Notes under the pieces: model-generated | What the model was told of the DNA's origin: nothing | Seen by the model: the letters and a program-made list of their open reading frames with translations, nothing else | Databases searched by the model: none | Source: an uncultured Acidobacteriaceae bacterium | Lineage (GTDB): Bacteria; Acidobacteriota; Terriglobia; Terriglobales; Acidobacteriaceae | Length of the DNA stretch: 64,000 nucleotides | Assembly (NCBI GenBank): GCA_903842065.1 | Contig: CAIMKZ010000105.1 | Location: 1-64,000 of the forward strand | Reading direction: 5' to 3' | In this document: positions 31,041 through 64,000 of the stretch, piece by piece | Position numbering within the stretch: position 1 is the stretch's first letter | Layout: each line of letters starts with the position of its first letter | Program-made: the position numbers and the translations under genes

Positions 31041-31147
31041 AATTGCTCCTGCTTCAACTTCGGAGAGGCGACTGACTCGATGATCCTGCAACTTGAGGAT
31101 ACTGCCGCCTGTTTCATGTTGGCTGAACGAATCTTCAGCACTTGCGA

Positions 31148-34919: not shown

Positions 34920-35720
34920 ATGGGCGCTGACTTGATCGAATTGCGAATCCAGTCCGGGATCGCAACACTCTGCCTGAATCGTCCCGAAAAGCGCAATGCG
35001 ATGAACGACAAATTGCGATCGCAATTCATCTCCGCGCTCGAAGGTATCCAAGCGGACCGTAACATCCGCGCGCTGGTCCTGACCGGAAACGGCAAGGGCT
35101 TCTGCGCCGGCGGAGATGTCGCCGCCATGGAGAAGCGCCTGGAAAAGTCGGCTGGCGAAGTTGGCTTTAGTGGCTGGACCCGCCAGCAGCGCGTGCATTA
35201 CGCTCAGTCTCTGCTTCACACCCTGCCCATCCCCACAATTGCAGCCGTCAACGGCACTGCCGCCGGTTTGGGCGCAGACACAGCTCTTGCCTGCGATTTT
35301 GTCATCGCCAGCAGTGAAGCGAGTTTTGTCTGGTCGTACATCGACCGCGGCCTGATTCCGGATGGGGGCGGGATGTACTTTTTGCCGCGGCGGGTCGGCC
35401 TCTCAAAAGCAAAGGATCTGATATTCAGCGGCCGCAGGGTGAATGCAGACGAGGCCTTAAGTATGGGAATCGCCGATCGTCTCAGCACTCCGGAAACACT
35501 CATGGCCGACGCGCACACGTGGGCTGTCGAGCTGAGCCAGGGTTCCAGGACCGCTATTGCGTTAGGCAAGACCATCCTCAACCAGAGTTTCGAGCTATCG
35601 GCAGAGCAAGTCTTCGCCCAGGGAAGTCAAGCCCAGGGGATTTGCTATACAAGTACGCAGCATCGCGAATCTGTCACTGCCTTTTTACAGAAGAGTGCGG
35701 CGCGCAAGGGGGCCGCGTGA
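34920..35720 (+). CDS. enoyl-CoA hydratase/isomerase family protein
   Basis: A 266-residue crotonase-fold enzyme: CLNRPEKRNAMND, the oxyanion-hole segment GNGKGFCAGGDVAAM, NGTAAGLGADTALACDFVIAS, and IDRGLIPDGGGMYFLPRRVG. The second catalytic acid position is Asp (IPDGGG), as in PaaG-like isomerases, rather than a Glu pair. It hydrates or isomerises an enoyl-CoA in the cytosol. Its stop codon overlaps the next start by one base, so it forms an operon with the fused hydratase/dehydrogenase. Together they suggest beta-oxidation of a CoA-activated acid, such as a phenylpropenoid side chain or an acyl group released by esterases; this is inference. Confidence 0.9.
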   Translation: MGADLIELRIQSGIATLCLNRPEKRNAMNDKLRSQFISALEGIQADRNIRALVLTGNGKGFCAGGDVAAMEKRLEKSAGEVGFSGWTRQQRVHYAQSLLHTLPIPTIAAVNGTAAGLGADTALACDFVIASSEASFVWSYIDRGLIPDGGGMYFLPRRVGLSKAKDLIFSGRRVNADEALSMGIADRLSTPETLMADAHTWAVELSQGSRTAIALGKTILNQSFELSAEQVFAQGSQAQGICYTSTQHRESVTAFLQKSAARKGAA

Positions 35721-37786
35721 TGAAACAAGAACAAATCAATACGAGTACAGTTGTCCGAGTCGTGTTCGAGGAGGATGTAGCCGTTGCCATTATCGACAAC
35801 CCGCCGATCAATGCTGGATCGCACGAAGTACGGTCTGGATTGTTGGCGGCTATCGAACAAGCAAAGGCATCTCCCGATGTATGCGCTGTAGTAATTATTG
35901 GCGCGGGTACGACTTTTATCTCCGGCTCCGATCTGCGCGAGTTCGGCCAGCCCATCGCCGACCCGCAGTGGCCGGAGGTGTTCGCGGCCATTGAAGCCTG
36001 CCAAAAGCCCGTAGTGGCCGCGCTGCACGGCGCAGCGCTTGGCGGCGGCTTCGAGCTGGCCCTGGCATGTGATGCGCGAATAGCGCATTCAGGCACAGTC
36101 GTGGGCCTGCCCGAGGTGACACTCGGAATCATTCCGGGAGCAGGCGGCACGCAGCGGCTGCCGCGACTAACCGGAATTCCGAAAGCCATAGCGATGATTG
36201 GCGGCGGGGAGCGGGTGCCGGTCGCTCAGGCGCTGTCGCTTGGCATAGTCGACAATGTGGTGACAGCAGACCTGCGCAGCGAAGCCATTTCGTGGGCAAG
36301 ATCCATGCAGGGCCAGAAGCGCAGAGTTCGCGACATTGCCGTGCCTGCGTGCGATGAAGCGTCGATTGCAAAGGCTGCAGAAACCACACTACGCGCGGGG
36401 AAAAACCGACCGGCAGTTCGTGCTGCCATCGATGCAGTAATTGCGGCAAAGACACTCCCCATGGATGAGGGGCTAGCGCAGGAGCGTGCGTCGTTCCAGT
36501 CTTTGCGTGTTTCCCGCGAAGCACGTGCTCTGCGTCATCAGTTCTTTGCGGAGCGCGAAGCTGCCAAACATCCTGCCTTTGATAAGGCCGAGGTGCAGCC
36601 TGTCAAACGGATTGCAGTCATCGGCGCAGGCACAATGGGCGCAGGTATTGCAATCGCCGCGCTCGACTCCGGATACGACGTTACGCTGGTTGATCAGGAA
36701 GACGCAGCTCTTGGCAAAGGAATCGAGCACATTCACGGCTACTACGGCAGCCGCGTCAAGGCGGGCAAGCTCGACGCCGCGCAGGCCGCCGAACGGGAAA
36801 CGCGGCTGAAGTCCGGTCTTGACTGGTCGATCATCTCCGAAGCCGACCTTGTTATAGAGGCAGTCTTCGAGGACCTCAAGATCAAGAAGGATGTGTTCTC
36901 TCGCCTAGACCAAGTGGCTCGTCCCGGCGCTATCCTTGCGTCAAACACTTCCTATATCGACCTCGATGCGATCGCTGCCGCCACTTCGCGTCCACAGGAT
37001 GTGGTGGGTCTTCACTTCTTCAGCCCAGCCAACGTCATGCGCTTGCTCGAGATCGTTCGCGGCTCGGCCACTGCACCGAGTGTGCTGGCCACGTGCCTGC
37101 AACTGGCAAAGCGTCTGCGCAAGACTTCAGTGGTCTCTGCCAATGCGTTCGGCTTCATCGGAAACCGCATCTATTCCGCCTACCGCCGCCAATGCGAGTT
37201 CATGCTCGAAGAAGGTGCGACTCCGCTCGAGGTCGATGCGGCTTTGGAATCCTTCGGTTTTGCCATGGGTCCGTTTGCTGTGGCTGATATGTCCGGGCTC
37301 GATATCGCCTGGCGCATGCGCCAGAGCCTGGCCGCCACTCGCGATCCGGCGGCACGTTACGTTCAGATTCCCGACATGCTCTGCGAGGCAGGCCGCCTGG
37401 GGCAAAAGACAGGCGCAGGCTATTACTCATATGCGCAGGCAGGCTCGCGGCGGCAGGTTGATCCAGCAGTAGATGAAGTGATTGCCAGGGCAAGGACGGC
37501 TAAAGGCATCGTTGCGCGTGCGTTAGGCGCAGAGGAGATAACCCGGCGAGTGATGCTCACGATGGCCAATGAAGCCGCGCTACTGCTCAAGGAGAACGTA
37601 GCCGAGCGGCCGAGCGATATCGACGTTGTGCTGGTTAACGCTTACGGCTTCCCCAAGTGGGAGGGCGGCCCGGTATTCTGGGCTCGCGAACGCGACGCTG
37701 CAGAGTTGGAGAAGGACCTCGACTGGCTAGCCGAACTTAGCGGACCAGGATTCGTGCACGGCGATGTTCAACAACTACTTTCGTAA
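35720..37786 (+). CDS. bifunctional enoyl-CoA hydratase / 3-hydroxyacyl-CoA dehydrogenase (FadJ/FadB-like)
   Basis: 688 residues from the ATG at 35720, overlapping the previous stop (TGATG). Residues 1-190 form a crotonase domain (GLPEVTLGIIPGAGGTQRLPR). Residues about 295-475 form the NAD-binding domain (IAVIGAGTMGAGIAIAALDSG; HFFSPANVMRLLEIVRG). Two C-terminal 3-hydroxyacyl-CoA dehydrogenase domains follow (NAFGFIGNRIY; VNAYGFPKWEGGPVFWA). It carries out hydration and oxidation of enoyl-CoA to 3-oxoacyl-CoA. No thiolase or acyl-CoA ligase is nearby, so the pathway is incomplete within the window. Confidence 0.92.
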   Translation: MKQEQINTSTVVRVVFEEDVAVAIIDNPPINAGSHEVRSGLLAAIEQAKASPDVCAVVIIGAGTTFISGSDLREFGQPIADPQWPEVFAAIEACQKPVVAALHGAALGGGFELALACDARIAHSGTVVGLPEVTLGIIPGAGGTQRLPRLTGIPKAIAMIGGGERVPVAQALSLGIVDNVVTADLRSEAISWARSMQGQKRRVRDIAVPACDEASIAKAAETTLRAGKNRPAVRAAIDAVIAAKTLPMDEGLAQERASFQSLRVSREARALRHQFFAEREAAKHPAFDKAEVQPVKRIAVIGAGTMGAGIAIAALDSGYDVTLVDQEDAALGKGIEHIHGYYGSRVKAGKLDAAQAAERETRLKSGLDWSIISEADLVIEAVFEDLKIKKDVFSRLDQVARPGAILASNTSYIDLDAIAAATSRPQDVVGLHFFSPANVMRLLEIVRGSATAPSVLATCLQLAKRLRKTSVVSANAFGFIGNRIYSAYRRQCEFMLEEGATPLEVDAALESFGFAMGPFAVADMSGLDIAWRMRQSLAATRDPAARYVQIPDMLCEAGRLGQKTGAGYYSYAQAGSRRQVDPAVDEVIARARTAKGIVARALGAEEITRRVMLTMANEAALLLKENVAERPSDIDVVLVNAYGFPKWEGGPVFWARERDAAELEKDLDWLAELSGPGFVHGDVQQLLS

Positions 37787-37882
37787 TCCAGAAATTATGA
37801 AGGGCAGGAGCCAGTTCCCTTCCTAAATACATCCGGGCTGCAAATGCAGCAGAAATTCCAATAATGATTCGGAGTGAAGAAG

Positions 37883-38803
37883 ATGCCAACAGACTATGAC
37901 GTGATTATCATCGGCTCCGGCTGTGCAGGATTGTCAGCAGCCTTGTATTCGAGCCGCGCAGGACTCAAAACGCTCGTTCTGGAAAGAGAATCCATGGGCG
38001 GCGAGTCAATGAACCGGCAACTGATTGAAAACTACCCCGGCTTTGCCGCGGGCGTGGACGGGCCGGAGCTTGGCGCCGCCATGATCGAGCAAGCAATGAA
38101 CTTCGGCACCGAAATCGAAATCGGGGAGGTGACTGGCCTCAAGGTTTCTGCCGGCAGCATTACGGTTCACTGCGAAGATCAGAGCCGCACTGCAAAAAGC
38201 GTCATTGTTGCCTCCGGCGCGTGCCCGCGCAAGCTAAATGTTCCGGGCGAAGAGGAGCTGACAGGATCAGGCGTCTTCTATTGCGCTACATGCGATGGCC
38301 CAGGCTATGCGGAACGGCCTGTCGCAATTGCAGGAGGCGGCGATTCAGGCATCACCGAAGCACTGTTTCTTGAAAAGCTTGGCAGTAAGATAACCGTCAT
38401 TGAGTTCATGGCCAAGGGCAAGGTCTCGAAGGTTCTGCTGGACCGAGCCATTGCCAGCCCCAACATCGACATCAAGTACTCCACCAAGATCGAACGAATC
38501 ATCGGAGACGGAGAGGTCAAGGCCATCGAGATTCAGGATTTGAACACCGGCGTAAAGAGCGAGCTTGCCGTCGACGGGATCTGTGTTCGCATCGGTATGG
38601 TGCCCAACACCGGCTTCTTGAAGAACGTCCTCACGCTTACGCCGACCGGGCAGGTTCCCGTAAGCCCGAACATGGAGACCTCGATTCCAGGACTCTTCGC
38701 GGCCGGCGATGTGAGAGAGTTTTCCATGATGCAGATGGGAACAGCCGTCGGGGATGGAATCACCGCTGCCATGGCGGCGGGGCGATATATCCAACTGCTC
38801 TAG
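37883..38803 (+). CDS. thioredoxin-reductase-like FAD oxidoreductase
   Basis: 306 residues from the ATG at 37883; GGAG at 37871 suits this start better than the GTG at 37874. FAD motif GSGCAG at 11-16, redox pair Cys134/Cys137 in YCATCDGP, second nucleotide motif GGGDSG at 151-156, C-terminal FAD-binding AAGDVRE. The NADPH-specific HRRxxxR motif of ordinary TrxB is replaced around 174-180 by EFMAKGK, so another electron donor (NADH or a ferredoxin) or a different partner is likely. It follows the beta-oxidation genes but is 96 bases downstream. A perfect 23-bp hairpin ends it. Confidence 0.85.
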   Translation: MPTDYDVIIIGSGCAGLSAALYSSRAGLKTLVLERESMGGESMNRQLIENYPGFAAGVDGPELGAAMIEQAMNFGTEIEIGEVTGLKVSAGSITVHCEDQSRTAKSVIVASGACPRKLNVPGEEELTGSGVFYCATCDGPGYAERPVAIAGGGDSGITEALFLEKLGSKITVIEFMAKGKVSKVLLDRAIASPNIDIKYSTKIERIIGDGEVKAIEIQDLNTGVKSELAVDGICVRIGMVPNTGFLKNVLTLTPTGQVPVSPNMETSIPGLFAAGDVREFSMMQMGTAVGDGITAAMAAGRYIQLL

Positions 38804-38910: not shown

Positions 38911-40206
38911 TTAATACTGCCGCATCATATCCACCAGCCCATTCACGATGGTGGACTCCCCACATCCCTTCTTCAGCGGAGAGCTGAAGACTTCGAAGGT
39001 CGGATTGTCATACGAGCTGTCCTGGGGGATGTATCCGATTCTTCCATTGGCAATGGTAATCATCATGGTGTTTGTGAAGGGCGACTCTTTGCGCAGGTGC
39101 TGATAGATATTCGTGACCACTTCGGCCGATACCGAGGTGATGGCGATCCGATCGATCATCAGCAGGCTCAGCCTGAAACTGACAGGATCAGCATCCACGA
39201 GTTTTCTATTCGCTCCGTCCTGCGCCTTGCCCGTAGCGCTCTGCCCTGGACAGGTGACGATCTTTTCCATTCCCCATATTCTCTGCTGCACAGATGGCGC
39301 CTTCACTCTGTCGGCAACTCTGACCACCTCGGCACCCAGGATCTCACCGAGAACATTTACGTTTTCGAAGTTCATTTCATCATCTGGCTTGTGGGGCGTG
39401 GAGATGGGGTTTTGATCGCCAGCCGCGCCCATGGTCCAAACCGCGACAACTTTGTCGTTATATTTCTGCTCGACAAAGCGCGAAGTAGCTCCGGCCAGCT
39501 CCGCGGTCACGATCGACCCTCTCAGATTCACAATGGTGTTATGAACGGCGTAGTTTATCAGGATCGCAATCGGTTCCCCGGTGAGAGATTCGAACTTGAC
39601 CACCCAAACAGTTTTGTCGGAGGGCCCATCTGGATTCCAACCGATGCCGTACCTGCCGTCCGGCATAAGCTGATCGCGGTTCATATTGATGTCGACGGTT
39701 CCTGTTCCTACCGCAACGCGCGCCGGCTGCATGTTGGCTTTGGCCTGCTTCAGCGCTTTTATCAGATCGTCTTGCACTTTGTTGATCCATGCGGTCGCGG
39801 CTGGGCCGGCATGGCGCGATCCGCTCGCGTTTGCAAGACTAAACAGCGGTGCGCTGTGATTGTGAGTAGCGGTGATGATGATGTTGGAAGTTGGAATGCC
39901 CGTCTCCCTGGAAATGCGCGCCGTCAGTTCCGTAGCATCGGTAATCTCTACAGCGTCCAACGTGATAATGGCGGCAGTGGTTGTGTCATTGCCCACAACA
40001 ATCGCGCGCGCGTAGATCCTGTCGTGAATCGCGGTGTACTTTGTTTCCCAAAAGGTGGTCACGCCTCCGGGGACATCCGGCGTCATGTCAACTTTCACGA
40101 CGCCAACCCGCAGGGTGCCCTGTTCTGCACCAAAAGCGATGCCGCCTAACATTCCCATCACAACAAGAAAGCCTAAGATCAAGCGGAGATATCCGGAGCA
40201 TTTCAT
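38911..40206 (-). CDS. secreted neutral-ceramidase N-domain-like protein, paralog 2
   Basis: 431 residues with a signal peptide (MKCSGYLRLILGFLVVMGMLGGIAFGAEQG); GGGG precedes the ATG. Same domain as the copies at 29652 and 62688: LRVGVVKVDMTPD, DRIYARAIVVG, the HxH site in ATHNHSAPLF, and GDQNP in place of the nucleophile-bearing GD-x-SP of true ceramidases. It is the shortest of the three, lacking the Pro-rich insert. It ends with the same CGEST/NGLVDM-type C-terminus as the others (G-C-x-E, IVNGL-D). Substrate unknown. It follows the tannase-family gene's terminator on the same strand. Confidence 0.78.
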   Translation of the reverse strand: MKCSGYLRLILGFLVVMGMLGGIAFGAEQGTLRVGVVKVDMTPDVPGGVTTFWETKYTAIHDRIYARAIVVGNDTTTAAIITLDAVEITDATELTARISRETGIPTSNIIITATHNHSAPLFSLANASGSRHAGPAATAWINKVQDDLIKALKQAKANMQPARVAVGTGTVDINMNRDQLMPDGRYGIGWNPDGPSDKTVWVVKFESLTGEPIAILINYAVHNTIVNLRGSIVTAELAGATSRFVEQKYNDKVVAVWTMGAAGDQNPISTPHKPDDEMNFENVNVLGEILGAEVVRVADRVKAPSVQQRIWGMEKIVTCPGQSATGKAQDGANRKLVDADPVSFRLSLLMIDRIAITSVSAEVVTNIYQHLRKESPFTNTMMITIANGRIGYIPQDSSYDNPTFEVFSSPLKKGCGESTIVNGLVDMMRQY

Positions 40207-40371: not shown

Positions 40372-42150
40372 CTATTGCGTTTTCTTGCAGTCCATGGTCG
40401 CACCGTTTCCGGTACACCACAATTCATAGTGCGGAGTGTAGAACGACGAACCGTACCAGTCAGCCAGACTTTCAGGAGCAAGACTTGGCTGACCTTCAAC
40501 AAAGTTCTTCGCCTCGTCTGTACTTCCGGTGCCGATGTATTTCGCAGTCAACGGATACGGAAATACTGGCCGTGTGCGATCCGGCGTTTCCGCTTGAACT
40601 TCCTTGGCTCCCTGGTCAGAACCCCGCGCGATGCTATCGCTGGGGAGATGTGATGCAATCAGCTTATACGGCGCCTGAGATTTCTCTACCCAGGCCATGA
40701 GCGCGCTGACGAAATCCACACGGAACGGGCCCTCTCCGCCAGAGCAGTGATTGCCGCCGGGGAAGAGATACAAGCGCGCGAATTTGTCTACGGTCGATTT
40801 GCCCATTACCTTCTGCATCTCGGTGTAGTAGAGGATGGTCTGCCATGGCGGCATGCCCGGATCGGTCAGGCCATGGAACTGAATCAGTTTGCCGCCATTG
40901 GCCACGAATTCCGACACATCGGGGTCCGTGGCGTCGTAAAGAGCATGCAGTTCGGTGGTCGACTCAAAGCCGGCGCGGTCATACCCCATTTCCAGGACGG
41001 TAGTGCTTTCCGGCGGGTTCTTCCAGTGGGCCAGATACTTGAAGACGTTGTTGGCCATGCCATGGATGGGCAAACTTTTACCTGCGGCGGGTGCGTACCT
41101 GCCCACCCAATTCACTTCCGATCCGGGAAGCCCGCCGCCGACGATCAGCCTCTTCCCTGCGCTGTCATGAGCGCCCATATACAAATCGCGTACGACCCTG
41201 ACCTGCTCAGGCGTCAGGCAGGTAGCTGGATCCTGATCTGGCTTGCATTGGATAACCACGGGGTCGAAGTGACAGGCCAGGGGATCGCTGATAAGACCAT
41301 CCTTCACGCTATCCGCGGCATCGCATTGGTCCAGAACCGCCTTGTGCAGAAGGGGTACTTTGTCCTCGGTAAATATTGCCTTGCCATCCGCGCCCGTATT
41401 GGTGCGCCGACCCCACGCCTGAAAATAGGTGTTCTGCGTGGTAAAGTTCAAGGCCGCGTCGCCGGAGATAATTCCGTTGAAGTCTTTTGGGAAGCGTTGC
41501 ATCTCCATCAGTGCCTCGCGGCCGCCATCCGAGCAGCCATCGAAGTAGGAGTACTTAGGCGCCTGCCCGTAGTACTTTACGATGAGCGCTTTTGCCGCAA
41601 GTGCCGTGACGTGCACGCCGCGATAGGCAAAGTCGATGCGAGCTTGATAGTCCGTGGCTCCCCAGGTTCCGTTCTCTGGTGATGCCGCCGAATTGCCCCC
41701 ATGGCCCATATCGGAGCTTGCCAGAACCAGTTCGCCGTTGGTTGCGGGAATACAGCCGTCGGCATTGCTGGGTGTACGCACGTTTACCCAGCCACATAAC
41801 CCACCACAGCCTGTCTCCATAAATCTCTGTGTCCACTTGGCCAGTGGCAGACGAACAACAAAGTTGATCTTTGCGTCTACATGGCCCTTCACTTCACAGT
41901 AGGGTGCTGGTTTCCCGTCCGGCACTGCAGTTGCCGAGTCAATGTGTGTGGGCGCTCCCACAGGCCCGCTAATATCCGCAGATGAGAGGCTCGTGCAGTC
42001 AACGACAGGAGCAATGGCGGCCAGCGCCGCGAGCCCCGAAGTGGCCGTACTGGCCGGAGCTTGCTGGGCTGACGAAGTTGAGGCAGTCCCTGCAACGAAC
42101 AGCAATGTTGCCACGCATCCACTCAAGATCAGTCTGGAATGAAGAGCCAT
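40372..42150 (-). CDS. secreted tannase/feruloyl-esterase family protein
   Basis: 592 residues from the ATG at 42150 (AAGGAG upstream), with a signal peptide ending near residue 29. The catalytic CS-D-HC arrangement of the family is complete: Cys206-Ser207 in DGCSDGG, Asp430 in HGLTDPG and His468-Cys469 in GGNHCSGG. The two cysteines should form the disulfide that brings Ser and His together. Members release gallate from galloyl esters or ferulate from plant walls. An extracytoplasmic tannase-type enzyme fits a genome that also encodes a pyrogallol transhydroxylase-like enzyme and a 4-oxalomesaconate hydratase. Gallate or hydroxycinnamate specificity cannot be decided from sequence. Confidence 0.88.
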   Translation of the reverse strand: MALHSRLILSGCVATLLFVAGTASTSSAQQAPASTATSGLAALAAIAPVVDCTSLSSADISGPVGAPTHIDSATAVPDGKPAPYCEVKGHVDAKINFVVRLPLAKWTQRFMETGCGGLCGWVNVRTPSNADGCIPATNGELVLASSDMGHGGNSAASPENGTWGATDYQARIDFAYRGVHVTALAAKALIVKYYGQAPKYSYFDGCSDGGREALMEMQRFPKDFNGIISGDAALNFTTQNTYFQAWGRRTNTGADGKAIFTEDKVPLLHKAVLDQCDAADSVKDGLISDPLACHFDPVVIQCKPDQDPATCLTPEQVRVVRDLYMGAHDSAGKRLIVGGGLPGSEVNWVGRYAPAAGKSLPIHGMANNVFKYLAHWKNPPESTTVLEMGYDRAGFESTTELHALYDATDPDVSEFVANGGKLIQFHGLTDPGMPPWQTILYYTEMQKVMGKSTVDKFARLYLFPGGNHCSGGEGPFRVDFVSALMAWVEKSQAPYKLIASHLPSDSIARGSDQGAKEVQAETPDRTRPVFPYPLTAKYIGTGSTDEAKNFVEGQPSLAPESLADWYGSSFYTPHYELWCTGNGATMDCKKTQ

Positions 42151-42443
42151 TGGTTTGTACTCCTTACAGCCTCTGTTGTAGGCACCGGAATTCTGAGCGG
42201 CGAGATCAGGCAATCGAAACTTCCGCATCCCCACCAGCGATTCATTTGCAATGGAGTTTTCTCGCGCCCGTTGTTAAGGACAGAACGGAAGACGTCAAAG
42301 ACTGTTGTTGCATAGGAGGAAATTTGGAAGAGAAAAGCGATTCCGCCGTTGGCATGGCCGCGGTACGGATGAAGGGAAAACTCTTGCGGAGGTGCTATTC
42401 GATAGGAGTCGCAACTTCCGCCGATCATGACGGCCTCTAGAGT

Positions 42444-46910: not shown

Positions 46911-47978
46911 TCACACCCGGATCAACCTGGTAACAGCCCTATGCTTCGGCCCGCCCCAAGAGGGCATCCAGCTTGAGTGCAGCCCGGCTCCCCCAACGAC
47001 GAAAATAAGAAGATTCTCTTTGTTCAACACCACCGGGATGGGCGAGACGCCATCAAACTCTCCGTGCTGCGCCGGAGCCTTCTTGCGGGCGATCAAGTGC
47101 TCTTCAGAGATCAAGTTCAAGGGCACTCTTGCATGCTCAAAGAGATAGTCTCGGACATCGTCTTTGCTGACGCCCTCTCTGCCAAGGATTGTGGCATGCT
47201 CTGGTCCCAGACAAATAACAAGATCCGAGCCCGTGACAAATCTGAAGTTTGAGGTTCCCGCGGACGTGATGCTGCTGGCCAGGATCCTCAGGAAGCTGGC
47301 AGCCTTGGTGGCATCCTGCCCATTGATATCTTGCGGACCTTCGAGGCCGAGGACTGTTACGGTGCTGTCGGTGGGCTTGAATCCACGTTCGACGTGGAAA
47401 GGCATCCATGGGCTCTGCTCCTCGTTCTCCGCAAAGCAGAACGAGAATTTTGCCGGAGTTCCTTGGGTTGACTTGTCGACCTTTCCCGGAAACGCGCCGC
47501 CGAGGTTGAGCATGATCAGTCTGATAGCGCGACCGATGGTGGCGTTGGCTCTCCAGCACGGTCCCATAGCACCTGAGCCGGAGTTAATGTCGAGAGTCTT
47601 CGCGATGGGGCCGTTCACGATCGCAACCATTGCGCAGGGGTGCGTGGTCGCCTGCACGCCGAACAAATCGAATCCCTCGGCGGTCATGGCTTCGACCGCG
47701 GCGATCACAACGGGGAGATGCTCGGGCCGGCAGCCTGCCATCACCGCATTGATCGCGATCTTCTCGACAGTCGCTATGCCATTTTGCGGAGGGACCTTAG
47801 TAGCAATGACTTGCTGCGGATCGAGATTGTTATGCTCGATCATGCGCGCCACGCGCTCTTCCGTGGGCGGAATAACAGGAAGACCGTCGGTGCAGCCTTT
47901 CTTGTAAAGCTCGTCTTCGATCTCCTCAAGTGAATCATTGAGGACGATTCTGGATGATTTCAAAGCATCCGTATTCAA
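46911..47978 (-). CDS. uncharacterised protein encoded with UGSC selenoprotein
   Basis: 355 residues, no signal peptide or membrane helix; GGAGA precedes the ATG. I do not recognise a named domain. Notable segments are KKGCTDGLPVIPPTEERV at 27-44, AGCRPEHLPVVIAAVEAM, THPCAMVAIVNGPIAKTLDINSGSGAMGPCWRANATIGRAIRL (about 112-154) and PVVLNKENLLIFVVGGAG. Cys29, Cys83, Cys115 and Cys141 are candidates for thiol chemistry with the selenoprotein. The gene starts 66 bases after the selenoprotein stop and shares its terminator, so the two proteins probably act together, perhaps as a reductase or transferase pair. Function unknown. Confidence 0.75.
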   Translation of the reverse strand: MNTDALKSSRIVLNDSLEEIEDELYKKGCTDGLPVIPPTEERVARMIEHNNLDPQQVIATKVPPQNGIATVEKIAINAVMAGCRPEHLPVVIAAVEAMTAEGFDLFGVQATTHPCAMVAIVNGPIAKTLDINSGSGAMGPCWRANATIGRAIRLIMLNLGGAFPGKVDKSTQGTPAKFSFCFAENEEQSPWMPFHVERGFKPTDSTVTVLGLEGPQDINGQDATKAASFLRILASSITSAGTSNFRFVTGSDLVICLGPEHATILGREGVSKDDVRDYLFEHARVPLNLISEEHLIARKKAPAQHGEFDGVSPIPVVLNKENLLIFVVGGAGLHSSWMPSWGGPKHRAVTRLIRV

Positions 47979-48044
47979 TCGATCTCCTTCTCTATAATCG
48001 TCATTCGCAAGCCTGCCCCGGGCATAGCCCGGGACAGCAACCGA

Positions 48045-48584
48045 TCATGCCTGGCCCGTCATCAACTTGACGAGCATCTCCATTGCGTTTTCGGCCTTAA
48101 TCTTCACCTGTTCCGCAGGGAGCCCCGCGCCCAGCGGATGGGGCACCGCACAGACCTGCACGCCCGGCAATCCCATTGCTTTGGCCTCCATTTTAGCCAG
48201 GCCGCTGAAAGAGGTGGTTGTCACAATGAGTGACGGAATTCCGTGCTTTTCGAGATCGACTGTGTCGTGGAGACTCCACGACGTGCAGCTCCCTCAATCA
48301 CCTAATCCGGTGATGGCGAAATTACAGTTCATCTTGATTTCGTCGATGATGTTCTGCGCAAGCGGAGCGGTTCGGCCGGGCTTGCGGTATCGAACGACCT
48401 TTGCGCCGTACTGGCTGACCAGAAGCTCCTCGACTCGATCGCAGAAGATCGAAAAGTTCGGCTTGGTGTTGTCGATCATGGCCACAGTCATCCCCGCAAC
48501 GCTCTTAAGGCGAGAATTGAAGGTCAGACTTTTCGTCTTGGGCAACGATACGGGGTCAAGTATCGTGATGGTTCGCTGTTCCAT
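48045..48584 (-). CDS. UGSC-motif selenoprotein (in-frame TGA read as selenocysteine)
   Basis: 179 residues when TGA at 48294-48296 is read as selenocysteine 97; otherwise the frame breaks after 96 residues. The frame continues without loss of coding character to a TGA stop at 48045. The site reads ITGLGD-U-GSC-TSW, a U-x-x-C redox motif (Sec97/Cys100) that I recall from the UGSC family of (seleno)proteins. Upstream lies VAMIDNTKPNFSIFCDRVEELL; downstream EKHGIPSLIVTTTSF and VPHPLGAGLP. The ATG at 48584 has GGAG upstream. A perfect hairpin starts 11 bases after the TGA. The full selenocysteine machinery is encoded 6-13 kb away. Substrate and reaction are unknown. Confidence 0.9.
48264..48282 (-). 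promoter_or_regulatory. candidate bacterial SECIS element
   Basis: In the minus-strand transcript GTCGTGGA pairs perfectly with TCCACGAC around a GUC loop. The stem begins 11 bases after the UGA codon, and the loop G is 20 bases after it. Position and apical G/U fit bacterial SECIS elements bound by SelB. Confidence 0.75.
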
Positions 48585-48672
48585 AGGACTCCTTTCTTGC
48601 ATATCGAGTTCGTTGTCACGGTCCGACCGAACATCAAATCGTATCCGGCCGGACCGTGCGGCGCATTGAGCT

Positions 48673-50277
48673 TTACTGAGCTTCCTGCGTCATAAAGAAT
48701 CGCTTCATGAAGTCAAACTTGGCCTTGTCAGCCACTGGGATCGGCGCGAAGTGATCACCGAGTTCCATCGTCACAGGCACCTTGGCATCAAACGGCGCCC
48801 AGACAGGCAAGCCCTTTCCATTCGGGTTTCCTGTGGTGGCAAAGTTGACCAGATAGGAAGACATAGTGTCGGCGATCTTTCGGTCTACATCGGTCCAGGG
48901 CAGATCCCTGGAATAGAGATTGTTGAACAGGTAATTGATCTCCGAACCGTGGTAGACGCCTCTGGTATCGTGCTCCGGCCCCGGAGGCGCGTGCGTCCAG
49001 AAATAGGTGAAGACGGGACTGCGCGCGGCCTTCTTCCAGTCCGTGGCAAGGAGGAAGCTGGAAAGTCGCAGCGCGTCGCGATTTGCCTCGCTGTGCGCCA
49101 AAACCGCCTCATGATCCGATGTGGCGGGATAGAGCTTGAGAAACTCCTCGGCCATGGCCCCATATTTCTTGCGCATGGCGGTCTGAAAAGCATCCAGCGT
49201 GGGCGCGGACAGATGCTCTGCCGGGCCCAGCAGTTCGTCATGGTTAAAGCCCACCATAAACGGGACATCGCTTTGCAGGCCTCTGGCCATGGTCTCGCTG
49301 AATCTTTGTGGGAAGACCCAGCCGTCGAAGTATGGGCGGAACTGGCTCAGCGGAACACTACTCTCTTTCAACTGATCCCACGGTATGGCGCGCAATTCCT
49401 TGAGCGAGTGAACACCCTGAGCTTCGCTGAATTTTACGCCTGCGTTTTCAGCTTCCTTCACCGACTGCCAATACACTGGATGTCCGGGAAGATCGGGATC
49501 GTACGGAGAGCGAGCCCCGCTCTCAGAGACGGCTCGCTGAAAGAGGCCTTTGGCCAGAGGAGACCCGGTCAATAAAAATACCGCTTCGGCGCCGGACGAC
49601 TGGCCGTCGATCGTTACGCGACCTGGATCGCCGCCAAACGCGGCAATGTTTTTCTGCACCCATTGGAGACACGCGATCGTGTCAAGCATTCCGTAGTTGC
49701 CCGAGACGTTGTGAGTAGACTCCTTACTCAGCTCCGGCGAGGCAAGATAACCGATGATTCCAAGACGGAAGTTCATCGTCACCACGATCAAGCCCTTTCG
49801 CGCCAGTCCCTCGCCGTCATAGCTCGGGGACGAGCCCGATCCCCCGGTGAAACCGCCGCCAAAGAACCAGACGAGAACCGGACGCTTCTCAGTGGTGGAT
49901 GCGGCTCCCGACCAGACATTCAGGTAGAGACAATCTTCGCTGATCGGTACTGAATTGCCGAAGCCTGCGCCCGGTCCCCGCGACGATTGCGGGCACATGG
50001 CTCCGAATTGGTCGGCCTTACGGACGCCTTTCCATGGAGTAACGGGCTGCGGCGCTTTCCAGCGCAGCTCGCCTACTGGCGTGGCAGCGAAAGGAATGCC
50101 TTTGTAGACCGAGATGGAGGGGTCCTTGCCCTGCACTCCCAGGAGTTGTCCGGCATCGGTACTGACAGGCTCGTTCATTGCCGCCATAAGCGGGCATGCG
50201 CCCAGGGTCACAACGACCACCGCAATGGATGCGCGGGCCAGAAGTCTGGCACAAAATGAATCGAATTGAGGCCTCAC
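48673..50277 (-). CDS. secreted type-B carboxylesterase 2
   Basis: 534 residues from a probable GTG start at 50277 (GGGGA upstream), which gives a signal sequence (residues about 10-33). Longer frames add a non-typical N-terminus. Type-B esterase: SEDCLYLNVW at 113-122, oxyanion GGG at about 140, nucleophile Ser227 in GQSSG, late YHGSEINYLFNN with the catalytic His region. It is 88 bases upstream of the selenoprotein gene on the same strand and may be co-transcribed with it and with the TonB receptor above. Together these could supply a substrate from outside the cell. Paralog of the 31148 product. Confidence 0.85.
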   Translation of the reverse strand: MRPQFDSFCARLLARASIAVVVVTLGACPLMAAMNEPVSTDAGQLLGVQGKDPSISVYKGIPFAATPVGELRWKAPQPVTPWKGVRKADQFGAMCPQSSRGPGAGFGNSVPISEDCLYLNVWSGAASTTEKRPVLVWFFGGGFTGGSGSSPSYDGEGLARKGLIVVTMNFRLGIIGYLASPELSKESTHNVSGNYGMLDTIACLQWVQKNIAAFGGDPGRVTIDGQSSGAEAVFLLTGSPLAKGLFQRAVSESGARSPYDPDLPGHPVYWQSVKEAENAGVKFSEAQGVHSLKELRAIPWDQLKESSVPLSQFRPYFDGWVFPQRFSETMARGLQSDVPFMVGFNHDELLGPAEHLSAPTLDAFQTAMRKKYGAMAEEFLKLYPATSDHEAVLAHSEANRDALRLSSFLLATDWKKAARSPVFTYFWTHAPPGPEHDTRGVYHGSEINYLFNNLYSRDLPWTDVDRKIADTMSSYLVNFATTGNPNGKGLPVWAPFDAKVPVTMELGDHFAPIPVADKAKFDFMKRFFMTQEAQ

Positions 50278-54774: not shown

Positions 54775-55839
54775 TCAGTTCACTAATAGGCGTGGTGCGG
54801 CGCTGGTCGCCGCAATTGCCCCGACCTCAGCAGCTTGCGCGAAACCATGGTGGCGGAAGACAGCCAGCACATTATCCAAGCAAGACGGCGCGCACGATAC
54901 CAGTAGTCCGCCGCTGGTCTGTGGGTCGGTTAAGAGCGCTTGGTCTTCAGTGGCAAAGCCAGACGGCAACGTAACTTCAGAACCGTACGAAGACCAATTG
55001 CGGCCCGAGGCGCCGGTGATTAGCCCCCTTGCCGCCAGCGCGCGCACGCCGGCCAAAAGCGGCACGGCCGACCAGTCGAGCTGAACATCGCAATGAGCGC
55101 CCCGAGCAATTTCTAGTGCGTGGCCGGCCAAGCCGAAGCCGGTTACATCGGTCAAGGCGTGTACTCCATCCATGCCGGCAAGGTCCGGCCCCGGTGTGTT
55201 CAGCTGGGTGGTAACGTCAATCATCTGCGCATAGCCGTCGTTGCTAAGTTCACCCTTCTTAAGAGCGGCGGACATTACCCCCACACCCACAGGCTTTCCT
55301 AACACCAGCAGATCGCCGGGCCGGGCGTCCGCGTTGCGCTTCACGTGTCTGGGGTGCACGAGGCCCAGCGCCACCAGGCCGTATATGGCTTCGACAGAGT
55401 CGATCGTGTGCCCACCCGCGATGGGGATTCCCGCCGCCCGGCAAGCCGATGCACCACCTTCGAGAATGCGTCCTATCGTCTGCGTGGATAGTACTTTGAT
55501 TGGCATGCCCACAAGCGCCAGGGCCAGAATCGGCCGTCCACCCATCGCGTACACGTCGCTAATCGCGTTAGTGGCGGCGATGCGGCCAAAATCGAACGGG
55601 TCGTCAACTATGGGCATAAAGAAATCAGTGGTAGCGATCAAAGCCTGCTCGTCGTTGAGCTGGTACACCGCTGCATCGTCGGCAGTCTCTGTTCCGACCA
55701 GCAGTTCTTTTGGGACGGGCATGGATGCAGTTCGATTGAGTATCTCCGACAATACCCCGGGGGCGATCTTGCAGCCACAACCACCACCGTGAGACAGAGA
55801 TGTCAGGCGGGGTTCTACGTGTTTGTCGACAGCGTCCAT
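54775..55839 (-). CDS. selD: selenide, water dikinase SelD
   Basis: 354 residues; AGGAG precedes the ATG. It makes selenophosphate from selenide and ATP. Glycine-rich N-terminal active site SHGGGCGCKI with Cys21 (equivalent of the catalytic Cys17 of E. coli, so the Cys form, not Sec) and Lys24; DDAAVYQLND; ATTDFFMPIVDDPFDFGRIAATNAISDVYAMGG; DVTGFGLAGHALE; TDPQTSGGLL. Length is normal. It follows the lactonase gene on the same strand by 46 bases. Selenophosphate is the donor used by SelA, encoded 2 kb away on the other strand. Confidence 0.96.
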   Translation of the reverse strand: MDAVDKHVEPRLTSLSHGGGCGCKIAPGVLSEILNRTASMPVPKELLVGTETADDAAVYQLNDEQALIATTDFFMPIVDDPFDFGRIAATNAISDVYAMGGRPILALALVGMPIKVLSTQTIGRILEGGASACRAAGIPIAGGHTIDSVEAIYGLVALGLVHPRHVKRNADARPGDLLVLGKPVGVGVMSAALKKGELSNDGYAQMIDVTTQLNTPGPDLAGMDGVHALTDVTGFGLAGHALEIARGAHCDVQLDWSAVPLLAGVRALAARGLITGASGRNWSSYGSEVTLPSGFATEDQALLTDPQTSGGLLVSCAPSCLDNVLAVFRHHGFAQAAEVGAIAATSAAPRLLVN

Positions 55840-57332: not shown

Positions 57333-57677
57333 TCAGAAGCTGATGGCCTTATCGGCTTCCTCTGCCCACGTCACCAGTTCATCGAGGGTGCTGCGGCGAA
57401 CTTCAGGAATGAGCGAATCCGTACCCAGTCCGCGCGCATCCATGCAGCTACCACAAGCTGCAACATCCGCTCCAGTGGCCGAAATCGCCCGCAGCATCTC
57501 TTGTGGGTTGTAGTCGGCGTGAGCTGGTGTGAGCCTAGCCAGACCGCAGGTTACCCCATCCCCCAGGAGGAATACGTTCGTCTCGGCTTTGCGCGAAAAG
57601 GCGACTGCCAACCGCAAGCCGTTGTGCGTTCGCTGGTTTCCGTAGGGAGAGTCATTGAAGATGAATAGAAATTTCAA
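57333..57677 (-). CDS. DsrE-family protein with CGSC motif
   Basis: 114 residues, starting with TTG at 57675-57677 after GGAGA. Complete small DsrE/YchN-like fold: FLFIFNDSPYGNQRTHNGLRLAVAF, NVFLLGDGVTC, and the active-site segment AACGSCMDARG with Cys75 and Cys78. Proteins of this family move sulfur, and probably selenium, as persulfide-type adducts. Its position between selD and selA suggests a role in selenium delivery. Note the same (C/U)GSC pattern as in the selenoprotein at 48045. It is divergent from selA. Confidence 0.8.
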   Translation of the reverse strand: MKFLFIFNDSPYGNQRTHNGLRLAVAFSRKAETNVFLLGDGVTCGLARLTPAHADYNPQEMLRAISATGADVAACGSCMDARGLGTDSLIPEVRRSTLDELVTWAEEADKAISF

Positions 57678-57915
57678 ATTGCGATCTCCATTTTCAACTT
57701 TCCTTCACGTGGATTGTACCGCGCTTGGCTGCTTGTCTGGACCGCTGGCTTCCACCCTCTGGCTGTTCGTGCCTGTCGGTATACGAATGGCGCCGCTACG
57801 TTGCGACACGCGCCGCGCTAAAGACATCGATCTGATGAGATGTACAGCACTGAGTAGGTATAAAATTGCACCCAGCCCGCTAAGTTCTGGCAAATATCCG
57901 AACCAAGGAGAGCCG

Positions 57916-59349
57916 TTGATTCCTGATTCTGGCGCTTCATCGTTGTCGTCGCTTCCCTCTGTCGAACGCTTGCTCCGCCACGACGAGACGGCAGGCTTGA
58001 TTGCTGAGTTTGGCAGATCAGCGGTTACTTCCGCTATCCGCTCCGTATTGGCAAGCTTGCGACATGAGCTGCGCACAGATGACTCCACCGTAATTCCCGG
58101 TGACATCGTTTTGATTCTTGCTGCCGGCCAACAATTGCACGAAGGCGCGCAGCCATCTCTCCGTCGTGTCTTTAATCTGACGGGCACAGTGCTTCATACA
58201 AATCTCGGACGAGCCACGCTACCGGAGGAAGCTATTCAAGCTATCCTGTTAGCCGCCCGCGAGCCAACAAATCTGGAATTTAATCTGCTCGATGGCCGGC
58301 GCGGAGAACGCGACACACATCTCGAAAATGACTTGTGCCGCCTCACCGGAGCAGAGGCAGCCACAGTAGTGAATAACAACGCGGCAGCGGTGTTATTGGT
58401 CCTCAATAGCCTGGCAAATCGCAAGGAAGTACCCGCCTCCCGCGGCGAATTGGTCGAAATCGGCGGCTCGTTTCGGATGCCCGAGATCATGGCGCGATCC
58501 GGCTGCCGGCTGCGCGAGGTTGGAACAACGAATCGAACCCACTTGAGCGACTACGAGGACGCCATCGGCCCAAAAACTGGGCTGGTCATGAAGATTCATA
58601 CCAGCAATTACTCGATTGTAGGTTTCACCGCCGAAGTGCCCGAGGCTTCTCTGGCCAGTCTGTGCCACGAACGCGGAGTGCCCTTCGTTGTGGACCTCGG
58701 CAGCGGCACTTTGATCGATCTTCAGAAGTTCGGGCTGCCGTACGAACCCACTCCGGCCGAATCCATAGCGAACGGGGCCGATCTGGTTACCTTCAGCGGA
58801 GATAAACTTCTCGGCGGGCCACAGTCCGGAATCATCGTGGGGCGCGCAGTCCTCATTAATGCGATCAAGCGTAATCCGCTCAAGCGCGCGCTTCGTGTCG
58901 ATAAGATGACCATTGCGGCGCTTTCCGCCGTCTTGCAGCTTTACTCGAATCCCGAGAGCCTTCACCATCGCCTTCCAGTGTTGCGGCTACTGACTCGCCG
59001 CGTGGAAGACGTCCAAGCACTCGCGGATCTGCTGAGGGGTCCGCTCGCCTCTAAGCTTGAAGGCGTCGCCGCTGTAGATTCAGTCTTTTGCGAAAGTCAG
59101 GTTGGAAGCGGTGCATTGCCCACTCGCAAGATTCCTAGCGCTGGTCTGTCGATTCGGCCGATTTCCAAAAAGCAAGGCTCCGGCACAGTATTGGAGCGAA
59201 TAGCATGCGCATTCCGCGAGCTGCCCGTTCCCGTGATTGGCCGCATACAGGATGGCGCCCTCATCTTTGATCTCCGTTGCCTTGAAGACGAGACGGAGTT
59301 CGCAGGCCAGCTACCCGCATTCAACCTCCTAGGTGTACGAACAAAATGA
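57916..59349 (+). CDS. selA: L-seryl-tRNA(Sec) selenium transferase SelA
   Basis: 477 residues from a TTG at 57916 with AAGGAG at 57905-57910. The much longer open frame upstream has no SelA similarity and overlaps the DsrE promoter. PLP enzyme that converts seryl-tRNA(Sec) to selenocysteinyl-tRNA(Sec). Signatures: LTGTVLHTNLGRATLPEEA at 89-107, NNNAAAVLL, GTTNRTHLSDYE, and Schiff-base Lys297 in FSGDKLLGGPQSG. N-terminal helical domain (LPSVERLLRHDE) is present, and length fits. Stop overlaps the selB start by four bases (ATGA), so translation is coupled. Confidence 0.95.
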   Translation: MIPDSGASSLSSLPSVERLLRHDETAGLIAEFGRSAVTSAIRSVLASLRHELRTDDSTVIPGDIVLILAAGQQLHEGAQPSLRRVFNLTGTVLHTNLGRATLPEEAIQAILLAAREPTNLEFNLLDGRRGERDTHLENDLCRLTGAEAATVVNNNAAAVLLVLNSLANRKEVPASRGELVEIGGSFRMPEIMARSGCRLREVGTTNRTHLSDYEDAIGPKTGLVMKIHTSNYSIVGFTAEVPEASLASLCHERGVPFVVDLGSGTLIDLQKFGLPYEPTPAESIANGADLVTFSGDKLLGGPQSGIIVGRAVLINAIKRNPLKRALRVDKMTIAALSAVLQLYSNPESLHHRLPVLRLLTRRVEDVQALADLLRGPLASKLEGVAAVDSVFCESQVGSGALPTRKIPSAGLSIRPISKKQGSGTVLERIACAFRELPVPVIGRIQDGALIFDLRCLEDETEFAGQLPAFNLLGVRTK

Positions 59350-61265
59350 TCATTGCCACGGCAGGACATGTCGATCACGGCAAGACGCTGCTTGTAAAAG
59401 CTCTCACCGGTGTCGATGCCGATCGGTTGCCCGAAGAGAAGAAGAGAGGCATGACGATCGATCTCGGCTTTGCTTTTCTGCCGATCGCGCCCAGTGAGAC
59501 CGTTGGTTTCGTGGATGTACCCGGTCACGAACGGTTCGTTCACAACATGCTTGCTGGCGTAACAGGAATCGACTTCGTTCTGTTTATAGTTGCCGCCGAC
59601 GATGGCCCCATGCCGCAAACACGGGAGCACCTGGCCATCCTCGACCTGCTCGGGATTTCACATGGCGCTGTTGCTCTTACCAAGATTGATCGAGTATTGG
59701 CATCGCGAATTCCGGATGTTCAAGCCGAGATCGCAACTTTGTTCTCTTCCACTTCCCTAGCGCGCTTCCCCGTCTTCCCAGTCAGTGCGATAACCGGCGA
59801 GGGGGTAGAGGCGCTGCGAGCGCATTTGCTCAGCGAAGCACGGAATTGGCGTCCCCAAAAGCCCACGGGGAACTTCCGCCTGGCCATTGACCGCTGCTTT
59901 ACCATCTCGGGCGCTGGGATGATAGTTACCGGTACAGCCGTCGCAGGATCTGTTGCGACTGGTGACTCAGTGCGAATACTGCGCCCTGCGCTCACGCTCC
60001 GTGCCCGCACAATTCATGCACAAAACACTGCGTCCCCAACCGGGCAAGCTGGCCAGAGATGCGCAATCAACCTTGCCGGGACCAGCCTCAAGCATGGCTT
60101 GATCGAGCGCGGCGACTGGATCGTCACCGGCGACGTTCCGGAAGCCGTTCAAAAGTTCGATGCACGGATCAGGGTTCTCAATAGCGAACTCCAGCCGTTG
60201 GCCCATTGGACCTCGGTCCACGTCCACTTGGGCGCGGCAGACGTCACGGGCCGGGTCGCGATTCTCGAAGGAGCCGGCATCGCTCCCGGGACAGAGGCCT
60301 TTGTGCAGGTTGTGCTCGATCGTCCGATTGGCGCGCTTGGCGGAGACGGCATAATCATTCGGGACCAGTCCGCTCAAAGAACAATCGGCGGCGGAAGAGT
60401 CGTGGATATCTTTCCGCCACTCCGTGGGCGCGCCAAACCGGCAAGATTAGCCTACCTTTCGGCAATGAACACGCAGGACACCGCTGCCGCCTACTCTACT
60501 TTGTTGCGCGCAGCTCCGCGCGGTCTGAATCTCACCCGGTTTGCGCAGAACCGTAATCTGACAGCATCGGAAGCTGCACAGACCTTCAAGAGTTTCCCCA
60601 CCAGGTCTGTGCAGACCTCCGCAGGCACAATCGGATTCTCCAGCGATAACTGGAATCAGCTGAAAACAACATTTATCGATGCACTCAGGTCGTTGCATCG
60701 CCGCTCCGCTTCCGTGCTCCCCAGTGAGAATCAGGTCTTATCGGAAGCCAAACTTCGCCTGCCTAAGGAAGTAGCAGTGGCACTGGCGGCCGAACTGATA
60801 AAAGACACGGCCATTGTGCGCGAGGCTTCCGGGGTTCGCCTGAAGACGCACGCGGCTCAACTGAGCCCCGAGGATTCCTCTCTATGGAAGAAGGCGGAGA
60901 CCCTGCTGAATGCGGCTGTCTTGCGTCCGCCACCGCTGCATGATCTCGCCAAAGCGCTTGGCGTAGACCCCAGAAAAGCAGAGTCGCTTCTGCATCACAT
61001 GACTGGCTTGGGCCTGCTGGTCAGGGTATCGGCTAATCGCTTCTTCCTGCCGGCCGGATTGCACAGCCTCGCTCAGTTTACCGAGGAAATAGGAGCGTCC
61101 AACCGAGGCATGATCACCGGTGCGGCATTGCGAGATCGTGCGGGAATTGGCCGGGCATTAGCAATAGAAGTCCTCGAGTACTTTGACCGAATACGATTTA
61201 CACGCCGGATTGGAAATGAGCATCAGCTACTCCGTAAGGCTAGCCAGGCCTTCGGTGGCGGTTAG
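59346..61265 (+). CDS. selB: selenocysteine-specific elongation factor SelB
   Basis: 639 residues. GTPase domain with GHVDHGKT at 7-14, DVPGHE at 57-62 and TKID at 112-115; EF-Tu-like domains 2 and 3 (about 175-340); then C-terminal winged helices (about 380-639, for example [28 protein letters not shown] and [27 protein letters not shown]) that bind the SECIS hairpin. It carries selenocysteinyl-tRNA to UGA codons. Coupled to selA, with the tRNA-Sec gene 52 bases downstream, so the cluster is selA-selB-selC. Expected target in this window: the UGSC gene at 48045. Confidence 0.96.
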
Positions 61266-61317: not shown

Positions 61318-61413
61318 GGGAGAGAATCGCACCCCGGTGGGGCGCCCGGACTTCAAATCCGTTGAGAGGCGTTAGACGTCTCTGGTGGGTTCGACTCCCA
61401 CTCTTTCCCGCCA
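61318..61413 (+). tRNA. selC: tRNA-Sec (anticodon TCA)
   Basis: 96 bases including encoded CCA. The 8-bp acceptor stem (GGGAGAGA with TCTTTCCC, one G-U pair), 5-bp T stem (GTGGG/CCCAC), TTCGACT loop, discriminator G and anticodon TCA at 61353-61355 fit bacterial tRNA-Sec (8+5 geometry). The long variable arm (AGAGGCG/CGTCTCT) is present. The outer pair of the anticodon stem appears to be a C-U mismatch. Co-oriented with selA and selB. Confidence 0.95.
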
Positions 61414-62687: not shown

Positions 62688-64000
62688 TCAACGATACTTG
62701 TTGATCATGTCGACCAATCCGTTCACGATGCCGTCTTCCGCACAGCCCCGCGCTGCAGGTGAAGCCAGAACTTCGAAGTTGGATGTGGCATAGGCCGCAT
62801 CATCGACAAAGTACCCGGTACGGTCGTTGGTCAGCGTTACCAGAATTGTTTTGGTGAGCGGCGACGCCTTTCTGAGGCGCCAGTAGATGGTAGTCGCCAC
62901 CTCGCCCGACACCGTGGCAAATGCGATATCGCCAATCACTATCACGCCCAGGCGAATAGGCACAGAACCGGTTGGAGTCGGATGAAAGGTCGACAGCTTA
63001 TCGATGCCCTCCCGCAAGGGACATGAAATGACGCGTTCATCCGCACCAATCTTCGCCGCTGAAATGTTCAGCTGGACCTGGTTGGCAACCCGCACCACTT
63101 CCGCCCCGATCATCAAGCCCTGAGCAGTCATCGCGTCATATGAAGATGGGCCCTGGCCCTTGACCGGCGCGGGCACACTACCTGCCGGCGCAGGCCGGCT
63201 CTGGCTACCAGTGAACCTCGGCACCTGATCGCCGGCGGATCCAAGCGTCCAAAGCGCGACTACTTTATCACCGAAATGCCGCTCGACATAATCCTCAGCC
63301 GCGCCAGCGAGGTCTCCACCCAGACGATCCTCTCTCATCGTCACCACGGAGTGCACCGCATAGTTGAACAGCACGGCTATCGGTGTGCCGGATGTCGTCT
63401 CGAACTTGAGCACCCACACGGTCTTGTCCGATGGACCGGTCGGGTTGTAGCCCTCCTTCCATCCCTGTGGCGTGTACTGTTCGCGATTCACGTTGACATC
63501 TACGCTCCCGGTTCCCAGTCCCAGACGAGCCGGCTGCATCGAGGCTTTGGCCTGTTTGAGTGCAGCGACTATCTTGTTGTTCACGACGTCCGTATAGATA
63601 TCAAATTCGGGGCTGCCGAGCTTATCAAGCGAACCCGGAGTTGGTTTGCCTAGCCTTGGCGCGCTGTGAGCGTGGCTGGTGGTGATTACGATGTGATTGA
63701 CCGGAATCCCTAGTTCTTTCTCGATCCGTCCCCGCACTTCCAGCGTGTCCCCTGTTTCGATCAGGTCAAGCGACACGATCGCTACTGAATCGTGGCCGTT
63801 ATCAATGACCAGAACTCGGGCAAAGATGGGATCGTGAACGTCGGTCTGGGTCCCGTAGCCCATTGGATTCAGATGCGTCAGGTTAGCTGGTGTAATGTCG
63901 ACCTTGGCCACGCCCACCCGCAGTGTATTGTCCTCGGCCGCCAGCACCGATTTGATCGAAAGCAATGCCAGACAGAAGACTGAACCCATAAGAATTGCAC
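62688..64000 (-). CDS. secreted neutral-ceramidase N-domain-like protein, paralog 3 (5' end beyond window)
   Basis: The frame has an ATG at 63989, but codons before it (Ala-Ile-Leu) continue the hydrophobic stretch of a signal peptide and no charged N-terminus is seen. The gene thus probably starts right of position 64000. The visible part has 433 residues: LRVGVAKVDITPANLTHLNPMGYG, DPIFARVLVID, HxH in TSHAHSAPRL, GDQVPRF where true ceramidases have the nucleophilic Ser motif, and the shared C-terminus (RGCAEDGIVNGLVDM). Closest in layout to paralog 1 at 29652, including the Pro-rich insert. Substrate unknown. Confidence 0.78.
   Translation of the reverse strand, partial: AILMGSVFCLALLSIKSVLAAEDNTLRVGVAKVDITPANLTHLNPMGYGTQTDVHDPIFARVLVIDNGHDSVAIVSLDLIETGDTLEVRGRIEKELGIPVNHIVITTSHAHSAPRLGKPTPGSLDKLGSPEFDIYTDVVNNKIVAALKQAKASMQPARLGLGTGSVDVNVNREQYTPQGWKEGYNPTGPSDKTVWVLKFETTSGTPIAVLFNYAVHSVVTMREDRLGGDLAGAAEDYVERHFGDKVVALWTLGSAGDQVPRFTGSQSRPAPAGSVPAPVKGQGPSSYDAMTAQGLMIGAEVVRVANQVQLNISAAKIGADERVISCPLREGIDKLSTFHPTPTGSVPIRLGVIVIGDIAFATVSGEVATTIYWRLRKASPLTKTILVTLTNDRTGYFVDDAAYATSNFEVLASPAARGCAEDGIVNGLVDMINKYR

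Follow-up and report, generated by a model that had tools for sequence, protein, structure and literature searches.

Does the UGA codon that interrupts a minus-strand reading frame of an uncultured Acidobacteriaceae bacterium encode selenocysteine (Sec), and what reaction might the resulting protein catalyze? We examined this locus in a window of 64,000 nucleotides, the whole stretch of DNA analysed here (Table 1). A sequence-only reading had proposed that a frame from 48584 meets TGA at 48294 and continues for 82 further codons to a second TGA at 48045; all of these elements were found, the first TGA lying in the context GLGD-TGA-GSC-TSW. That reading had also expected ordinary gene calling to truncate the gene, and table 11 indeed yields a 102-aa ORF ending at 48294 in place of the 179-residue readthrough product. 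Deposited records of relatives are likewise broken: the Paracoccus ferrooxidans gene is split at the UGA into two hypothetical proteins, and the Acidovorax sp. T1 gene is annotated as a 97-codon truncated protein. Such splitting of UGSC genes by automatic annotation is a warning for deposited records.

Table 1 Features of the window that bear on the UGSC gene.
Feature	Positions	Strand	Basis
TrxB (thioredoxin-disulfide reductase)-like gene	37874..38803	plus	TIGR01292 310.8 bits, below cut-off 343.45; CATC kept
Partner gene P0002, "unk1" family, 355 aa, TTG start	46911..47978	minus	next gene downstream of UGSC
UGSC-family selenoprotein gene (predicted)	48045..48584	minus	179 residues, Sec at 97, TGA stop 48047-48045
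Bacterial SECIS-like hairpin, 8 bp, loop GUC	48264..48282	minus	pairing, GU loop and double change kept in Sec relatives
In-frame UGA, codon 97, putatively read as Sec	48294..48296	minus	U/C column in 35/35 aligned relatives
Shine-Dalgarno-like AGGAG ahead of ATG 48584	48589..48593	minus	sequence
selD, Cys form	54775..55839	minus	TIGR00476 423.7 bits, above cut-off
selA	57655..59349	plus	TIGR00474 561.6 bits, above cut-off; match from residue 98
selB	59346..61265	plus	TIGR00475 411.9 bits, above cut-off
tRNA-Sec, anticodon tca	61318..61413	plus	ARAGORN

The readthrough product matched PF24696 over residues 7–176, unbroken across the UGA (E 2e-44, 152.2 bits, cut-off 25), and NCBIfam NF041046 at 129.6 bits, slightly above the cut-off of 125. 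It carries U-G-S-C in the conserved column where the family has U/C-G-S-C, confirming the proposed UGSC membership over the full length of the domain, well beyond what chance would give. A Chloroflexota relative, 61–62% identical to the window protein over residues 1–179, has UGA at the same codon, and among 47 distinct relatives from acidobacterial and Chloroflexota loci every in-frame UGA falls in one shared column. Residue 97 is U or C throughout the 35 members of the curated alignment, a result that holds for the Sec/Cys branch only, because members with neither residue there (some paralogues in the acidobacterial genus g42, and fusions in Vibrio and Sporomusa) were left out. The suggested U-x-x-C centre, in which Sec97 would pair with Cys100, is supported.

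Relatives on plasmids of haloarchaea, Actinomycetota and Proteobacteria carry CGSC at the Sec column, and those of Acidovorax T1 and Paracoccus carry UGA. The window genome holds a second UGSC-unk1 pair (G000:C101:6624-8176; loci L002, L051), in which CGGC replaces UGSC and the UGSC gene is without a SECIS-like hairpin; Sec and Cys versions therefore coexist in this genome. A sister subfamily has neither Sec nor Cys at this column, which indicates that part of the superfamily works otherwise. The fusions of Vibrio europaeus (L065) and Sporomusa termitida (L066), both UGSC-like/unk1, have DMGTS where the Sec/Cys motif would be, with aconitase X and DUF126 genes nearby.

We then evaluated the putative SECIS element. 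The perfect 8-bp hairpin with a GUC loop, claimed to start 11 nt past the UGA, was located there; its stem pairs positions 15–22 with 26–33, counted after the U of UGA. The 52-nt stretch folded at −20.3 kcal/mol; 1 of 200 dinucleotide shuffles was as good (z = −2.57), and shuffling synonymous codons, which keeps the protein, gave z = −2.67. Among 26 Sec-coding relatives, 190 of 208 hairpin cells pair (91%) and 23 have a GUN loop; among 10 Cys-coding relatives, 54 of 80 cells pair (68%) and none has such a loop, although these counts are not independent, since the sequences share ancestry. Mean z against synonymous shuffles was −0.89 for Sec genes and −0.17 for Cys genes, a modest difference (one-sided Mann-Whitney p = 0.013). 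Pair 21:27 is C-G in 20 Sec relatives and G-C in 5; one side of this swap turns a Cys codon into a Trp codon and the other is a silent third-base change, a double change that is hard to explain without RNA pairing. An Rfam scan of 47900–48700 gave no match above the gathering score.

The genes for Sec synthesis and insertion, which the sequence-only reading had placed in the window, were each located, and all three sel genes score above curated cut-offs. The true start of selA is probably downstream of the called one, because the TIGR00474 match begins only at residue 98. In a sample of 297 acidobacterial genomes, 31 contained a clear UGSC match (G134 and G151 gave partial, marginal matches only), and selB was present in 31/31 of these versus 163/266 of the others, kinship not being corrected for. 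Neither UGSC nor selB was found in the two sampled genomes of the window's genus (G007 and G171).

If the UGA were a true stop, as table 11 takes it, the gene product would stop after 96 codons, and the frame beyond would be decayed or due to chance. We consider this extremely improbable: it is contradicted by the domain conserved through the UGA, the Sec/Cys column, the hairpin with its double change, and the 31/31 occurrence of selB. A true stop or a frameshift was rejected also on the homologue search, as relatives neither end nor shift frame at this codon, and the U/C column is conserved. Sec insertion at residue 97 is thus a prediction that is strongly supported. Taken together, the family match, the Sec/Cys column, the hairpin and the Sec machinery indicate, at the level of sequence, that the window gene is a member of the already known UGSC selenoprotein family, with which (PMC2398784) it has in common the full-length domain (PF24696, NF041046), the U-G-S-C motif and a bacterial SECIS. 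In that paper UGSC, with 255 sequences, belongs to the selenoprotein families found most often in Global Ocean Sampling data, and a 2026 review groups it with families of largely uncharacterised function (PMC13188914).

The family is greatly expanded in genus g42, where four genomes (G122, G113, G274 and G037) contain 11–28 UGSC matches each. An in-frame UGA was present in 18/19 matches of G122, 20/28 of G113 and 17/27 of G274; all 18 UGAs of G122 lie exactly at the U-x-x-C column, giving 18 Sec-coding paralogues, whose motif middles vary (USSC, UGSC, UDGC, USVC, UPGC, UWGC, UHGC and others). Many UGSC-unk1 fusions occur in these four genomes (loci L026-L032, L042, L053, L054, L080-L098).

The gene next to UGSC in the window, unk1, proved to be a near-obligate partner. 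It was found in all 31 acidobacterial genomes with clear UGSC versus 1 of the 266 others, counts that ignore shared ancestry, and this sole exception is a contig-edge fragment in G121. Apart from loci L035, L040 and L047, nearly every locus read has unk1 next to UGSC or joined to it in one gene, and the second copy in the window genome is no exception. The pairing extends to Proteobacteria, Actinomycetota and haloarchaea, and a Chloroflexota MAG has one adjacent pair and one fusion. Two haloarchaeal plasmids (L058, L060) show the order unk1-UGSC-unk1, with two differing unk1 copies around one UGSC gene. The window unk1 protein matched nothing in Pfam or NCBIfam, and 36 relatives gave no consistent match; the unk1 profile showed no similarity to UGSC or to GrdB-like proteins, and scans of viral contigs with the unk1 family gave no matches. 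When a natural fusion of UGSC and unk1 was modelled with AlphaFold on a five-row alignment, the result was poor (pLDDT 45). A fusion of UGSC with a domain named Unknown_1 has been reported (Zhang and Gladyshev 2008, PMC2398784), and unk1 may be that domain. The near-obligate pairing, the thioredoxin/TrxB context and the haloarchaeal Cys forms were not found described in the available part of that paper, and the pairing and thioredoxin context go beyond the published record so far as the literature was searched. Co-occurrence and fusion strongly support the prediction that UGSC and unk1 form a two-component enzyme.

An electron donor is suggested by the fusions and operons. In about ten loci unk1 bears an N-terminal thioredoxin-like/redoxin domain; six of these domains match AhpC-TSA/Redoxin strongly in Pfam (E 1e-12 to 1e-21), and the remaining ones are weak in Pfam or detected only by a profile made from the strong ones. 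Gene order is trxB-trxA-unk1-UGSC on an Arthrobacter plasmid and unk1-UGSC-trxB on a Roseovarius plasmid, and trxB lies near the pair on a Variovorax plasmid. The TrxB-like gene of the window, about 9 kb from UGSC, is of the same type as those beside UGSC elsewhere, and CxxC is kept in the TrxB-like proteins of the Arthrobacter, Roseovarius and Variovorax loci, of L042 and of the window; we infer a functional link to UGSC in the window genome. Thioredoxin as the electron donor is supported as a sequence-based proposal, with thioredoxin or TrxB near the pair in only about half of the loci, although this context would suit any thioredoxin-dependent enzyme.

We next compared UGSC with known protein families and folds. 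In an NCBIfam scan of 35 UGSC members, TIGR01917 (GrdB) was matched by 21 (best 4e-5), GrdF by 18, and PrdB, GrdH and TIGR01918 by 9 each; thioredoxin- or Prx-like models were absent among the matches. The window protein itself scores 12.8 bits against TIGR01917, far below the curated cut-off of 602.2, so it is not a GrdB by that measure, and the UGSC–GrdB similarity spans only about 80 residues. In an hhalign comparison, the UxxC of UGSC fell on the U/C-P-x-x-C motif that GrdB-like proteins from Acidobacteria carry (E 1e-4, probability 58%). The window protein was modelled with AlphaFold2 from three sequences (pLDDT 78, pTM 0.77); in this model five beta-alpha units alternate without a beta hairpin, and Sec97 comes immediately ahead of helix 98–113. 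Foldseek and VIA-align placed this model with flavodoxin-, response-regulator- and Rossmann-type chains, with no thioredoxin among the matches listed; the best VIA-align match was 8s7v_H, a chain of the methyl-coenzyme M reductase activation complex (Z 11.5, rmsd 3.5, 133 residues), followed within about 1.5 Z by a designed protein, response regulators and ketoreductases. A phmmer search of P0001 against the PDB hit only designed pentatricopeptide repeat proteins, over 48 residues, which we attribute to chance, and PDB profile searches with alignments A1 and A2 returned nothing meaningful.

A Trx-like fold was guessed for UGSC in PMC2398784. The beta-alpha model and its flavodoxin/Rossmann-type matches make that fold less likely, and profiles and model together suggest GrdB/PrdB kinship and a parallel alpha/beta fold instead. 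A distant relationship of the UGSC domain to the GrdB/PrdB active-site domain is supported by the profile matches: as in GrdB, GrdF, GrdH and PrdB, the UxxC of UGSC appears to lie at a helix start and to be followed by a similar strand-helix pattern, and the thioredoxin-linked, Sec-based reduction of these enzymes (glycine, sarcosine, betaine and D-proline reductase) is our proposed parallel. Unlike GrdB, UGSC has only about 180 residues and is without the GrdB N-terminal part, and a different partner, unk1, stands in place of GrdE/GrdA; searches for GrdE- and GrdA-like genes (PF09338, PF04723) in 13 UGSC genomes, run without a positive control, gave no match. Stand-alone acidobacterial GrdB-like proteins (L069-L078) share a Sec/Cys active-site motif with UGSC but form a separate family that matches PF07355, for which the window's genome gave no match. 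Their motif reads U-P-x-C or U/C-P-x-x-C, and L076 and L078 are without Sec/Cys at its first position.

Genes beside UGSC relatives, some identified from sequence without a family scan, encode CoA-transferases, CoA ester lyase, HMG-CoA lyase, PEP mutase-like enzymes, enoyl-CoA hydratases, SDRs and TRAP or tripartite tricarboxylate (TTT) transporters. In the window, the UGSC-unk1 pair comes after a carboxylesterase gene, and its surroundings include tannase, a pyrogallol-hydroxytransferase-like molybdenum enzyme, an aromatic-acid-type MFS transporter and indolepyruvate oxidoreductase-like genes. Since transporters, CoA enzymes and aromatic-acid genes are the neighbours, the setting points to a probable role in organic or aromatic acid catabolism rather than in stress defence.

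From these observations we propose the following mechanism. Sec would be inserted at residue 97 by SelB with the help of the hairpin that follows the UGA. The 179-residue product is predicted to fold as a parallel alpha/beta domain in which a helix starts at Sec97 and Cys100 lies one turn further. This protein and unk1 would act together, probably as a two-subunit enzyme, in which unk1 may help to bind the substrate, a small carboxylic acid or the CoA ester of one. The Sec97 selenolate would attack an electrophilic centre, displacing or reducing a group; Cys100 would then close a Se–S bond, releasing the product, and thioredoxin with thioredoxin reductase would re-reduce that bond. We lean, by a little, towards a GrdB/PrdB-related UGSC selenoprotein that, together with unk1, forms a Sec reductase linked to thioredoxin, with a carboxylic acid or a CoA ester as its substrate. 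The specific element of GrdB-like reductive chemistry on such substrates, suggested by remote homology, has about an even chance. The chemistry, left open by the sequence-only reading, is only partly settled by these results.

Two other functions deserve weighing against this reductase. UGSC might serve in stress defence as a Se-dependent peroxidase or disulfide reductase, as many Prx- or Trx-like selenoproteins do, with the fused redoxin as its redox partner; the AhpC-TSA/Redoxin matches of the fused domains, the UxxC motif and the Trx-like fold guessed in PMC2398784 all suit such an enzyme. We regard it as unlikely, given the predicted five-strand alternating beta-alpha domain with its flavodoxin, response-regulator and Rossmann rather than thioredoxin matches, NCBIfam matches to GrdB/PrdB and none to Trx/Prx, neighbours that are transporters and CoA-pathway enzymes, and an obligate partner, unk1, that would be unexpected there. 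An isomerase, racemase or lyase, in which the selenolate is nucleophile or base and thioredoxin merely keeps the Sec-Cys pair reduced, could account for the weak match of one UGSC member to Asp_Glu_race (E 0.034), the aconitase X or CoA ester lyase genes near relatives and the existence of Sec-less paralogues. This seems just as doubtful, as the thioredoxin-like domains fused to unk1 at about ten loci suggest a stoichiometric supply of electrons and the profile matches are to reductases.

Returning to the proposed reductase, we suggest tentatively, and with somewhat less than even confidence, that UGSC and unk1 represent a widespread new class of thioredoxin-dependent Sec/Cys reductases, combining a GrdB-like active-site domain with a new substrate-binding subunit, serving organic-acid catabolism in diverse bacteria and in haloarchaea, and multiplied in one acidobacterial genus to about 17–20 Sec-coding paralogues in each of the three genomes with the highest counts. 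Naming the near-obligate partner, the likely source of electrons and the enzyme class to which UGSC is related makes the function of the family testable.

Several further genes were noted in the window. Positions 23016–26854 encode a molybdopterin enzyme with a pyrogallol-hydroxytransferase-like domain and an iron-sulfur subunit, and the tannase gene lies at 40372–42234. Directly before the TrxB-like gene, positions 35519–37786 hold what appears by eye to be an enoyl-CoA hydratase/3-hydroxyacyl-CoA dehydrogenase-like gene, and similar genes adjoin UGSC in L036 and L038. Three similar minus-strand genes (29652–31091, 38911–40206 and 62688–63989) share a GTLRVG-AKVDITP start and are possibly neutral ceramidase-like.
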